Positions 46,362 to 49,849 are shown, numbered from the stretch's first letter. The stretch: DNA of 64,000 nucleotides from Methylotenera sp. (GCF_013141425.1 NZ_JABFRA010000019.1:1-64000); one strand, 5' to 3'. Numbers and translations: made by a program. The notes: generated from the sequence alone by a model not told the origin.

Positions 46362-46436
46362 ACTAGATTACTTTTTAATTGGATACTTTTAGAAAAATTG
46401 CTAGATCTTTCTTAAAAATGGGTTAAAAAACACACC

Positions 46437-46473
46437 TGCTCTGCGAGCCTTTATTTATAAGGCACGCAGAGCA
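46437..46473 (-). terminator. Second hairpin downstream of the bufC-like gene
   Basis: TGCTCTGCG-A-GCCTT-TATTTAT-AAGGC-A-CGCAGAGCA; minus-strand downstream GGTGTGTTTTTT. Confidence 0.65.
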
Positions 46474-46493
46474 TCGAAAAAAGTTGGTGCAAC

Positions 46494-46531
46494 AAAAAAG
46501 ATGCTTTCTTTATTTAAAGAGCGTCTTTTTT
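46494..46531 (-). terminator. Rho-independent terminator overlapping the 3' end of the bufC-like gene
   Basis: AAAAAAGATGCT-T-TCTTTATTTAAAGA-GCGTCTTTTTT; minus-strand U-tract. Confidence 0.8.
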
Positions 46532-47311
46532 AACGCCTAAAATTACTCCGCTCGCTTTTAGTTCTGTTAGCGTTGTTGCGCCAAATTGTATGATCATCTC
46601 ACTAGAAATTTGTGGGTATACCGAGGCCAATTTTTCCAGGGCAAGTTGGCCTGTCAGAGATTCGTCTCGTAATAGAGTCAGCAAATGAAAAGTGATAGGG
46701 TTGAGTTCCATAAACTTGATTTGGTGGTGAAGGTTACGAAAAACTAGTAAATGACTAGGTACATTCGGTTTTTGTTTTGGCATAAATTTTGGCGAAATCA
46801 GGTGCACGGGGTAGTCATATTGCAACAAAAATAGCGCAGGCGAAAATACAATTGGCCAATCCAATAAGTCGTTAGCATTTGCCTCGATAGTCTCAAAATT
46901 CACTGAGGTATCCTGCACTGAAAGCGCAAGCTCTACCCATTCGTAGTGCATGAATTCCGGTAAAAACGCGGGTAATTTGCGTTCCTTTAAGTTTATGTTA
47001 ACTAGGTGCAGCAAAAACTGCGCAGGAATTTCTCTAAAAAAAGGCGTGCTTGCTTGATGCTCAGCCAAAAAGCCACGCACCAATAGTTGCCACTTATGTT
47101 TGCTAAGAATTTTCTTTGTGACAGGAAAGCAACTCGCTAGCGTGCCTTCGATATTGTTATAGACAATTTCGGTATAGATTGCCATACGTTTGGCTGATAC
47201 TTCGGCCGGCCGAGGCTGATTTTTCGGGTCACGAATATGCTGTGTGAATTGCAGCTGATATGCCTGAAAGTCAGGTAGTTTATCAGGCGATACAGGTGGC
47301 TGATGCGACAT
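46514..47311 (-). CDS. DUF2063 (BufC/HvfC-like) MNIO partner protein
   Basis: RMAIYTEIVYNNIEGTLASCFPVTKKIL typical of DUF2063; downstream of and overlapping the DUF692 gene. Confidence 0.9.
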   Translation of the reverse strand: MSHQPPVSPDKLPDFQAYQLQFTQHIRDPKNQPRPAEVSAKRMAIYTEIVYNNIEGTLASCFPVTKKILSKHKWQLLVRGFLAEHQASTPFFREIPAQFLLHLVNINLKERKLPAFLPEFMHYEWVELALSVQDTSVNFETIEANANDLLDWPIVFSPALFLLQYDYPVHLISPKFMPKQKPNVPSHLLVFRNLHHQIKFMELNPITFHLLTLLRDESLTGQLALEKLASVYPQISSEMIIQFGATTLTELKASGVILGVKKDAL

Positions 47312-48158
47312 TTTTTATCTGCACATATTGCTGTTGAATGGCTGTTATTTTGTCGATTTCAGTGATCAGCGTGGTGAGTGGGGGAATATTGAGGTCGCGC
47401 TCTAATAAGGTTGGGAATACACCAAATTGCTGGTAGGCGGCATGCAATAGTTCCCATACCGGGTCAATAACGGCCTCGCCATGGGTATCTACCAATAAAT
47501 TGGGTGCTTCTTGGTAGTGGCCTGCTACGTGCGCATAAATGATGCGCTCGCTGGGGATTCCGCTTAAGAGCTGATGTGCGTTATAGTTAAAATTAACGCT
47601 ATTCACATAAATATTATTGATGTCTAAATGCAGCCAGCAATCAGATTCTTCAATTACTGCTTTTAAAAAAGTCAGCTCATCCATTTCAGAGATCGGTGCG
47701 GCAACGTAGCTGGAAGCATTTTCGATGCCAATGCGCTGGCCCAGAATATCCTGCGTTTGCTGAATTCGCTGAGCCACGTAATGCACGGCGTCTTCTGTAA
47801 AGGGGATGGGCAGCAAGTCATATAAATAACCACCATCGCTACAAAAACTTAAGTGTTCGGTGTAGAGTGGAATTTCATTCTGCTTTAAAAAGGATTTGAT
47901 CTGATGAATGAACGTCGTATTGAGCGGCTCAGGCCCACCAAGTGATAAGCAAAGTCCGTGGCAAACAATCGGATAGCGAGCGGCAAACCAAGCTAATTGA
48001 TCTTTGTATTTACCTCCTGCACTAATCCAGTTTTCGGGAGCGATTTCAAGAAAATCAATATTTTCGATGATAGCTTGCCCATAAAGCGTTTGGATTTGGG
48101 GTATCAACTCGCGTTTTAGCCCCAAACCCACACCATGAATGTTACTTAATAATGCCAT
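47283..48158 (-). CDS. DUF692 MNIO-type RiPP maturase (BufB/HvfB-like)
   Basis: GVGLGLKRELIPQ, FLEIAPENWISAGGKY, GLCLSLGG, YTEHLSFC, IGIENASSY, LHLDINNIYVN, HVAGHYQEA metal-site motifs. Confidence 0.95.
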   Translation of the reverse strand: MALLSNIHGVGLGLKRELIPQIQTLYGQAIIENIDFLEIAPENWISAGGKYKDQLAWFAARYPIVCHGLCLSLGGPEPLNTTFIHQIKSFLKQNEIPLYTEHLSFCSDGGYLYDLLPIPFTEDAVHYVAQRIQQTQDILGQRIGIENASSYVAAPISEMDELTFLKAVIEESDCWLHLDINNIYVNSVNFNYNAHQLLSGIPSERIIYAHVAGHYQEAPNLLVDTHGEAVIDPVWELLHAAYQQFGVFPTLLERDLNIPPLTTLITEIDKITAIQQQYVQIKNVASATCIA

Positions 48159-48181
48159 TTAAAAAAATTACAACGTGGACA

Positions 48182-48532
48182 TTATTTTTTTTTGGTGGCC
48201 GAGCAAGCACCATCTTTCATTTTTTCAGCACTGCAAGAGCCCTCTTTTGCTTTGCTGGTCTCTGCCTTTTCAGCAGAACAACTACCTTCTTTTGATTTTT
48301 CGGCACTGCAAGAACCTTCTTTGGCTTTTTCTGCTTTTTTCTTATCTGCACCGCATTTTCCTGTGCCACATTTTCCATCTTTTGCTTTTTCGTCATGATC
48401 GGCTACTTGATAGCCGGAAGATAACGATTTAACTACAAATGGGTTTTCAGCCGCACTCACTGAAGCTGTAGCCATTGACAATGCAAATGCGCTACTTACA
48501 GCAAGGGCAATTGATTTTTTTGTGTTGTTCAT
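48182..48532 (-). CDS. Bufferin/HvfA-like precursor peptide with repeated Cys motifs
   Basis: Signal peptide MNNTKKSIALAVSSAFALSMATASVSA, then NPFVVKSLSSGYQVADHDEKAKDGKCGTGKCG and EGSCSAEK repeats; immediately upstream of the MNIO gene. Confidence 0.9.
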   Translation of the reverse strand: MNNTKKSIALAVSSAFALSMATASVSAAENPFVVKSLSSGYQVADHDEKAKDGKCGTGKCGADKKKAEKAKEGSCSAEKSKEGSCSAEKAETSKAKEGSCSAEKMKDGACSATKKK

Positions 48533-48574
48533 GATAGATCCTTTTGGTAAATTAAGTTAAAAGTAAATACAGTT

Positions 48575-48847
48575 TTAATGGTTTTTAGATTCAATATGAC
48601 TGGAAATTTGCTGAAAAATTCTAGTTTTTGATTCTAATGGAAGTTGTAAGGTATCGTCATTTTCCGTTTCAAGTCTAATGCGTTTAGTTGCATTGTTAAT
48701 TAAACGCAGCTGCTGCCTAAAACGCGTACACGCAGCACACAAAAGTAAATGAAATTTTAATTTTATGCGCTTCGAACTAGATAATGGATTCTCTAATGAC
48801 TGTGAGATGAGTTGGCTAGCTTGTTTGCAATTGAGCATGAATTTCAT
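48575..48847 (-). CDS. Putative zinc-finger anti-sigma factor (zf-HC2-like)
   Basis: CKQASQLISQSLENPLSSSKRIKLKFHLLLCAACTRFRQQL; directly downstream of an ECF sigma gene. Confidence 0.85.
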   Translation of the reverse strand: MKFMLNCKQASQLISQSLENPLSSSKRIKLKFHLLLCAACTRFRQQLRLINNATKRIRLETENDDTLQLPLESKTRIFQQISSHIESKNH

Positions 48848-48851
48848 GTTG

Positions 48852-49409
48852 TTACCCAGCTATCCAATTCATTTCTAGACATTTTCTTAATCCCATACGG
48901 GCCCGATACAACATCACCCAAGCATTGGTCGCCGTAATCCCCAGTTCCTTACAAATATTTTCATTATCACTCTCATGCACATCACGCATGACAAAAATTG
49001 TAGCCAACTTAGCTGGCAATTTGTCGATGCAGCTGCTCAATATCGTCAAAAATTGCTTTTGTTTAAGGATATCTTCGGGCATATCCAATGCCTGTGGCTT
49101 TTCAAGCCAATGACCACTTTTATCAAAAAAATCGTCCATGCTGGTGTCCGAGGCATCCAAATCAATTAAATCGGAAAGGGGTTGTTCGCGTATTCGCTTA
49201 CGCTGAATATCAATAATTTTATGTTTGAGAATAGCTGTGAGCCAAGTTCTGGCTGAAGATTCACCACTAAAACTGTTGTTATTAATGCTGGCCAGCAGGG
49301 TTTCTTGCACGGCATCTTCTGCCAACTGTGGGTCGCGTAACCTTGCCAATGCAAAGCGATACAGATAATCACCATGCTCATTCAGCCAAACATTGATATT
49401 TTCATTCAT
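48852..49409 (-). CDS. ECF-family RNA polymerase sigma factor
   Basis: sigma2 DYLYRFALARLRDPQLAEDAVQETLLASI; sigma4 LPAKLATIFVMRDVHESDNENICKELGITATNAWVMLYRARMGLRKCL. Confidence 0.95.
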   Translation of the reverse strand: MNENINVWLNEHGDYLYRFALARLRDPQLAEDAVQETLLASINNNSFSGESSARTWLTAILKHKIIDIQRKRIREQPLSDLIDLDASDTSMDDFFDKSGHWLEKPQALDMPEDILKQKQFLTILSSCIDKLPAKLATIFVMRDVHESDNENICKELGITATNAWVMLYRARMGLRKCLEMNWIAG

Positions 49410-49849
49410 TAAGAAAATCCAGCTTTTTGGTTAAGTAAATTCAAATAGTATTCGGAATCCAGAGCTTGATTATTACGTTGTGCCTGCCAAATGGTTTCCG
49501 CAAGGCAATCAATCAAATCATGATAGGCAAGGTGGTTATCATGATGTTTGATGCGTAATTTGTCATAAATCTTGCTGATACCGATGGGTTGATTTATGGA
49601 GATTTGCTCGATGATCGATAAATGCAAAGTGATATGCAAAAATGGATTAGTTTCACCCATCTCAGGAAAGTACTGTTGATGCATATAGCGTTCAGGCGAG
49701 TCGAATACCACCTTATATTCAGGGTGCATCTGAATGACTTCTACCGCGATTTTTTCTAAATCCGTTAGTGCTTGTTGTTGTTTGAACTTTGCCCATGCGT
49801 CAAATAAGAATTGACGGGCTTGGTCGCGGCTAGGATTATAAAGACTCAT
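49409..49849 (-). CDS. DUF1841 family protein
   Basis: MSLYNPSRDQARQFLFDAWAKF...HPEYKVVF...NPFLHITLHLSIIEQISINQP pattern. Confidence 0.85.
   Translation of the reverse strand: MSLYNPSRDQARQFLFDAWAKFKQQQALTDLEKIAVEVIQMHPEYKVVFDSPERYMHQQYFPEMGETNPFLHITLHLSIIEQISINQPIGISKIYDKLRIKHHDNHLAYHDLIDCLAETIWQAQRNNQALDSEYYLNLLNQKAGFS

Follow-up and report, generated by a model that had tools for sequence, protein, structure and literature searches.

An HvfABC-type RiPP pathway in Methylotenera with a predicted sigma-E-type promoter embedded in the gene of its own sigma factor

Positive autoregulation is the rule for ECF sigma factors (PMC8103513). In Neisseria, sigma-E controls its own MNIO/DUF2063 operon as well as msrA and msrB (PMC2893595, PMC3240639), and the meningococcal sigma-E promoter has the consensus GTMAGBWTT ... 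CGTCTAAH (PMC2893595). In Haemophilus, RpoE2 controls msrAB and a DoxX/COG3220/DUF2063 cluster after HOCl (PMC7907618). The locus described here belongs to the same circle of systems and lies in a 64,000-nt stretch of Methylotenera DNA (the window), from a genome of 2.48 Mb in 142 contigs with a single MNIO gene. We consider it quite probable that this locus encodes an HvfABC-type RiPP pathway run by an ECF factor of the Neisseria sigma-E type, with the target promoter embedded in the sigma gene itself.

The features of the locus are collected in Table 1. An earlier note on this DNA had placed genes for an ECF sigma factor, an anti-sigma factor, a Cys-repeat secreted peptide, an MNIO maturase and a DUF2063 partner on the minus strand; all five open reading frames were found where it put them and their domains were confirmed with Pfam (Sigma70_r2 and r4_2 in the sigma factor, MbnB_TglH_ChrH at 334 bits in the MNIO protein, DUF2063 and NGO1945_C in its partner), and the 29-nt overlap of the last two genes is exact (47283-47311). 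Among solved structures, PDB 3bww is the best relative of the MNIO protein (E 4e-72), and the anti-sigma factor, in which the metal-ligand motif C7-X25-H33-X3-C37-X2-C40 can be read, is a predicted cytoplasmic ZAS type. Sigma is not the first gene of the unit, as had been thought, since its start codon overlaps that for the stop of the DUF1841 gene upstream, and this DUF1841-sigma synteny is maintained across the genus and the family. The common order in Methylotenera is rnfG-rnfE-nth-FIST-DUF1841-ECF-antisigma-precursor-MNIO-HvfC, facing DUF1289-secA; since the identical order recurs in most of the genomes examined, the five-gene block is not a chance arrangement. The strong minus-strand hairpins reported at the end of the block were borne out by folding, in which they surpassed all 200 shuffles, although the consensus terminator scan called none in that region; in the window, consensus scans for sigma-70 promoters and terminators gave matches no commoner than in shuffles.

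Table 1. Coordinates of the features of the Methylotenera locus, counted from the first letter of the window
Feature	Coordinates	Strand	Evidence or remark
DUF1841 gene	49409-49849	minus	PF08897, 183 bits
ECF sigma gene	48852-49409	minus	TIGR02943, 202.4 bits (cut-off 162.2)
Predicted embedded promoter	48925-48953	minus	inside the sigma gene
Anti-sigma gene	48575-48847	minus	NF052368, 66.2 bits (cut-off 50); zf-HC2, 25.3 bits (cut-off 22.2)
Precursor gene, HvfA-like	48182-48532	minus	below both HvfA models; alignments
MNIO maturase gene	47283-48158	minus	NF003818, 394.8 bits (cut-off 360)
DUF2063/NGO1945_C partner gene, HvfC	46514-47311	minus	NF050145, 269.1 bits (cut-off 142)
Downstream hairpin region, probable terminator	46410-46515	minus	MFE -32.7 kcal/mol, z = -4.2

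The proposal of an MNIO/DUF2063 RiPP operon with a variant precursor under an ECF/anti-sigma pair is supported, whereas its designation as a bufferin operon is not. The MNIO protein passes the HvfB model and stays below that for BufB (NF050167, 259.2 bits, cut-off 310), its partner passes the HvfC model, and the precursor has no Pfam match at all, including the DUF2282 match of Buf1 precursors. A methanobactin MbnB-type enzyme was considered as well and rejected (TIGR04159, 44 bits, cut-off 325). The precursor falls short of both HvfA models (NF050188, 24.4 bits against 95; NF050137, 16.4 against 19.5). Two copies of HvfX (DoxX) are encoded away from the block (136 and 131 bits, cut-off 80), both behind the predicted promoter motif that is also shared by msrPQ and msrA elsewhere; the block is therefore not self-contained, as the earlier note had described it, because the HvfX gene of the pathway is found elsewhere in the genome, twice. 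The RiPP pathway is a predicted new variant of HvfABC, and by analogy with characterized relatives HvfBC would turn the Cys residues of the exported precursor into 5-thiooxazoles that bind copper.

The promoter motif first came to light as TGTAAGG-N15-CG(A/T)(C/T)TAA ahead of the MNIO operons of two Methylotenera lineages, and it fits the sigma-E consensus of meningococci (PMC2893595); a long exact pattern meant for the whole class was too specific and matched the window only. A genus-wide search placed sites before msrP (13 distinct sites), hvfX/DoxX, DUF1223 and Buf2-type precursor genes. The latter, CKG-rich and lipoprotein-like, carry a CGACTAA motif in several Methylotenera (L072, L073, L083), and one sigma factor may thus control both HvfA-type and bufferin-2-type pathways. 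In the source genome, eight sites were found at no more than one mismatch, compared with three for a reversed control, and five of the eight precede, by about 20-80 nt, the genes for the anti-sigma factor, MsrP, HvfX, the second HvfX and MsrA. The msrP gene (472 bits, cut-off 207) is followed by msrQ, and one hvfX comes directly after msrQ. MsrP and MsrQ match the PF00174 and ferric-reductase domain types (Pfam), and genes with these domains occur in some EGKCG clusters (PMC12452194). Across 41 genomes of the genus, extra exact sites were present in 19 of 31 sigma-positive and 1 of 10 sigma-negative genomes (p = 0.009), an association weakened by a partial confounder, since the sigma-negative genomes are mostly smaller. 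Which sigma factor reads each site is something we infer, because the genome holds other ECF genes.

Predicted regulon and promoter together would assign the sigma factor to the Neisseria sigma-E/Haemophilus RpoE2 type. As for those two factors, a regulon of msrP, msrA and hvfX points to oxidative or thiol damage of periplasmic proteins as the first signal, with copper compatible but secondary. The earlier note had proposed a response primarily to copper or other metal stress, in keeping with the copper binding of captophorins and with the way in which excess metal often induces such clusters (PMC12668002), and the HvfX family is itself named for Cu-binding RiPP maturation; methionine-sulfoxide reductases nevertheless dominate the predicted regulon and the related RpoE2 of Haemophilus responds to HOCl (PMC7907618), which makes a primary role of copper a possible but rather unlikely reading.

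The precursor begins with a Sec signal (..SVSA/AENPF), followed by a conserved LSSGYQVA segment, the pair DGKCG and TGKCG, and then three EGSCS repeats and one DGACS; AlphaFold of the precursor alone gave a pLDDT of 44, too low to tell anything of its fold. Homologous precursors share the Sec signal, the (K/T)LSSGYQVA segment and a DGKCG-xGKCG pair ahead of variable repeats, and within the family full-length homologues grade into EGKCG repeats. Among 40-odd precursors from the family and outgroups, the commonest Cys pentads are DGKCG, EGSCS, TGKCG and EGKCG, with mainly Lys (140), Ser (68) or Ala (14) before the Cys and Gly (129), Ser (96) or His (12) after it. Since precursors outside the family stay EGKCG almost throughout, the EGSCS variant is a lineage-wide shift and not peculiar to the source genome, and it also explains the score below the HvfA cut-off, because most of the EGKCG repeats are EGSCS-like here. 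The precursor is thus a predicted Methylophilaceae-wide variant of HvfA, in which a DGKCG/TGKCG pair is followed by EGSCS-type repeats.

The related FonBC tolerates Ala, Arg or Thr before the Cys and, among the tested replacements of the Gly after it, Ala alone (PMC12668002), and modification of EGSCS by HvfB is by this analogy plausible. The alternative is that the EGSCS repeats are degenerate and unmodified, and that the DGKCG/TGKCG pair alone is processed. FonBC was blocked by all tested position-5 variants but Ala, with Ser not named among the reported variants (PMC12668002), and one genus member (L047) has only two Cys left in its precursor; against this, EGSCS ranks second in frequency among the family's Cys pentads and is repeated in tandem, which suggests maintenance, and degeneration of the repeats is accordingly judged unlikely. 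In L047, all but two Cys have been lost and the later repeats are Ser-rich and Cys-free, so that the precursor is decaying beside intact maturase genes.

In the window, the embedded site, which the earlier note had overlooked, consists of TGTAAGG (48947-48953) and, after a 15-nt spacer, CGACCAA (48925-48931) on the minus strand, and falls within the final fifth of the sigma gene, with the end of the -10 box 78 nt ahead of the anti-sigma start codon. This best match, which has one mismatch to CGWYTAA, is the sole motif copy in the operon and the window; upstream of sigma or DUF1841 no copy was found at up to three mismatches, and a promoter between the anti-sigma and precursor genes was rejected, as the 42-nt gap lacks the motif. 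Because at least one such match occurs in 73 of 100 shuffles of the window, a single match in the window could by itself be due to chance, and it is conservation that makes the case for an embedded promoter. TGTAAGG-N15-CGAC(C/G)AA is present in all 18 Methylotenera sigma genes that were compared codon by codon, and in 80 related loci an embedded copy within one mismatch was present in 69, against 3 with a copy no more than 400 nt upstream of sigma and 4 with a copy downstream. The distance from the end of the -10 box to the anti-sigma start is 63-95 nt in nearly all of the sites listed. The embedded -10 box is CGACCAA or CGACGAA, whereas most target sites have CGACTAA; CGACCAA was also found before msrP and msrB genes.

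An embedded element of this kind could bind the sigma-RNA polymerase complex unproductively, as a pause site, a roadblock or the source of a small RNA, leaving hvfABC to upstream read-through only. Sigma sites within genes frequently yield no transcription and sequences resembling promoters can induce pausing that depends on sigma (PMC10771440), and the E. coli RpoE promoter in cutC yields a small RNA (PMC8103513). The site is, however, sense-oriented at a steady distance ahead of the anti-sigma start in most genomes, the operon has no other copy, and intergenic copies replace the embedded one where it is lost, all of which makes an unproductive element distinctly improbable. Such a replacement is seen at the second sigma gene of one genome (L254, G021), where the embedded site is lost and reads AGT GAC AAC TAT, and copies lie between genes before sigma, after the anti-sigma gene and before the precursor gene. 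At another locus (L188, HGW-Betaproteobacteria-20), a natural loss pair is seen: sigma and anti-sigma are kept, hvfABC was not found downstream and the embedded -35 box is altered (TGTAAT).

A paralogous sigma factor (40-43% identity) in three genomes has an embedded site at the same codons with the -10 box CGTCTAA, a box shared by its candidate targets. CGTCTAA sites in these genomes precede genes for NPCAAK-repeat secreted proteins, possibly another class of Cys-rich modified peptide, and sigma factor, embedded site and targets seem to have changed in concert. In genomes G048 and G056, a paralogous ECF/anti-sigma pair that has a predicted embedded promoter of its own, with CGTCTAA, is found at L082 and L085. 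TGTAAGG-N15-CGTCTAA is also present before a gene for a DUF2064/TIGR04282-looking protein (L059, L065, L074, L075) in genomes without the paralogous sigma.

The codons that make up the motif show a constraint beyond that of the protein. In alignments of ten neighbouring genes from Methylotenera, sigma codon 154 is the only one of 53 invariant Lys columns that is always AAG (23% overall), and sigma codon 153 is the only one of 25 invariant Cys columns that is always TGT. Codon 160 alone, out of 798 columns with at least three amino acids, has fixed second and third bases; it encodes Ala, Thr, Pro or Ser, yet always as NCG. In a wider set of 66 non-redundant sigma genes (GC 0.40-0.70), scored against the codon usage of each locus, codons 153, 154 and 160 rank first to third of 167 for third-base constraint (z = 11.0, 9.8 and 9.2), and the spacer codons proved unconstrained, near 0. 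In a set picked without peptide patterns, TGT was found in 46 of 47 genes, compared with 26 of 68 at other Cys codons, and NCG in 47 of 47. These codon patterns indicate that the motif is kept by selection on DNA rather than on protein. That they reflect RNA structure or translation instead of a promoter is highly implausible, as the bases that are kept match the intergenic promoter motif exactly, down to the identical 15-nt spacer, the spacer codons are free and shuffled sequences fold just as well as the region (z = +1.1); a second codon signal, ATA CTC in region 2.4 of the same gene family, speaks in favour of that reading. This second nucleotide constraint (GILKHK; window 49227-49232, minus strand) combines the rare Ile codon ATA (27 of 47) with a following Leu codon CTC (33 of 47; z = 9.1 in the wider set), is seen in the sigma genes of loci L097-L156 and L182-L261 and is unlike the promoter motif.

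With the embedded site taken as a promoter, basal sigma would be supplied constitutively from the upstream housekeeping genes, probably the string that includes DUF1841, because the sigma start overlaps the DUF1841 stop. The zinc-thiol anti-sigma factor, as in its family, would hold sigma until an oxidant, thiol or possibly copper stress frees sigma through thiol/zinc oxidation. Free sigma would fire the embedded promoter to give anti-sigma factor, precursor, HvfB and HvfC and no extra full-length sigma, and would also fire msrP-msrQ, the two hvfX genes and msrA, as predicted from the motif. Fresh anti-sigma factor would then reset the response with sigma not amplified, and the peptide pathway would act alongside the repair of periplasmic methionine sulfoxide. 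To some degree, transcription that reads through from DUF1841 must also cover the anti-sigma gene and hvfABC. It seems likely, if slightly less so than the reading of this locus, that a whole branch of TIGR02943 ECF genes carries its own promoter in the coding sequence of region 4, one stretch thus serving as protein code and promoter alike, so that sigma drives anti-sigma and effectors but never itself, a conserved and hard-wired negative feedback; this branch occurs in Betaproteobacteria and in some records of Gammaproteobacteria, Desulfobacterales and Mariprofundus.

ECF promoters within genes are in themselves already known. The nearest precedents come from E. coli, where cutC contains an RpoE promoter (PMC8103513), and from Caulobacter, where the sigV promoter lies within cabp, the gene upstream (PMC13171946). 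The open-access full-text literature that was searched yielded no sigma gene in which the promoter for its own anti-sigma factor resides, and the embedded promoter, predicted to be read by the sigma factor it lies in, seems to be undescribed and widely conserved. It would reverse the usual positive autoregulation of ECF factors and offers a straightforward way to build a stress response that is rapid and limits itself. Surveys that deduce ECF targets from motifs ahead of autoregulated sigma operons overlook a promoter within the sigma gene, and embedded promoters may account for some ECF factors that are apparently 'not autoregulated'. The predicted regulon joins captophorin-type copper peptides with methionine-sulfoxide repair, a link that suggests what such peptides do physiologically, namely play a part in periplasmic oxidative damage, and HvfA-type precursors are extended to a Ser-flanked Cys motif.

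Bufferins (BufABC) share the MNIO and DUF2063 chemistry and periplasmic copper chelation, but differ in MNIO family and in their DUF2282 precursor, and known Buf1 clusters use an NrsF-type anti-sigma factor (PMC12452194). The oxazolin/captophorin HvfABC(X) systems (Haemophilus hvf, Fontimonas fon) have in common with this locus an HvfB-family MNIO protein, HvfC, a Sec-exported Cys-repeat precursor and HvfX in the genome, whereas here the precursor is EGSCS-like and under the HvfA cut-off, hvfX is separate, and an ECF factor and its anti-sigma factor are part of the cluster. H. influenzae RpoE2/HrsE resembles the Methylotenera factor in its Group 13 type, its small ZAS anti-sigma factor and its control of msrAB and DoxX/COG3220/DUF2063, and it controls its own gene only to a very limited extent (PMC7907618); its RiPP genes are, however, unlinked to sigma and an embedded promoter has not been reported. 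The N. meningitidis sigma-E/MseR operon NMB2140-2145 is a further counterpart, with the same promoter consensus, a ZAS anti-sigma factor, MNIO and DUF2063 genes in the sigma operon and Msr in the regulon. The Neisseria-type module of a TIGR02943 ECF gene followed by that of a small ZAS anti-sigma factor is found here, as is, by prediction, the placement of Msr genes (msrP and msrA) behind GTAAGG...CG(A/T)CTAA. Upstream autoregulation of the Neisseria type is what sets the two apart: meningococcal sigma-E activates its own expression through a promoter that precedes the RiPP genes (PMC2893595, PMC3240639), whereas in Methylotenera sigma comes first and the predicted promoter lies inside it.
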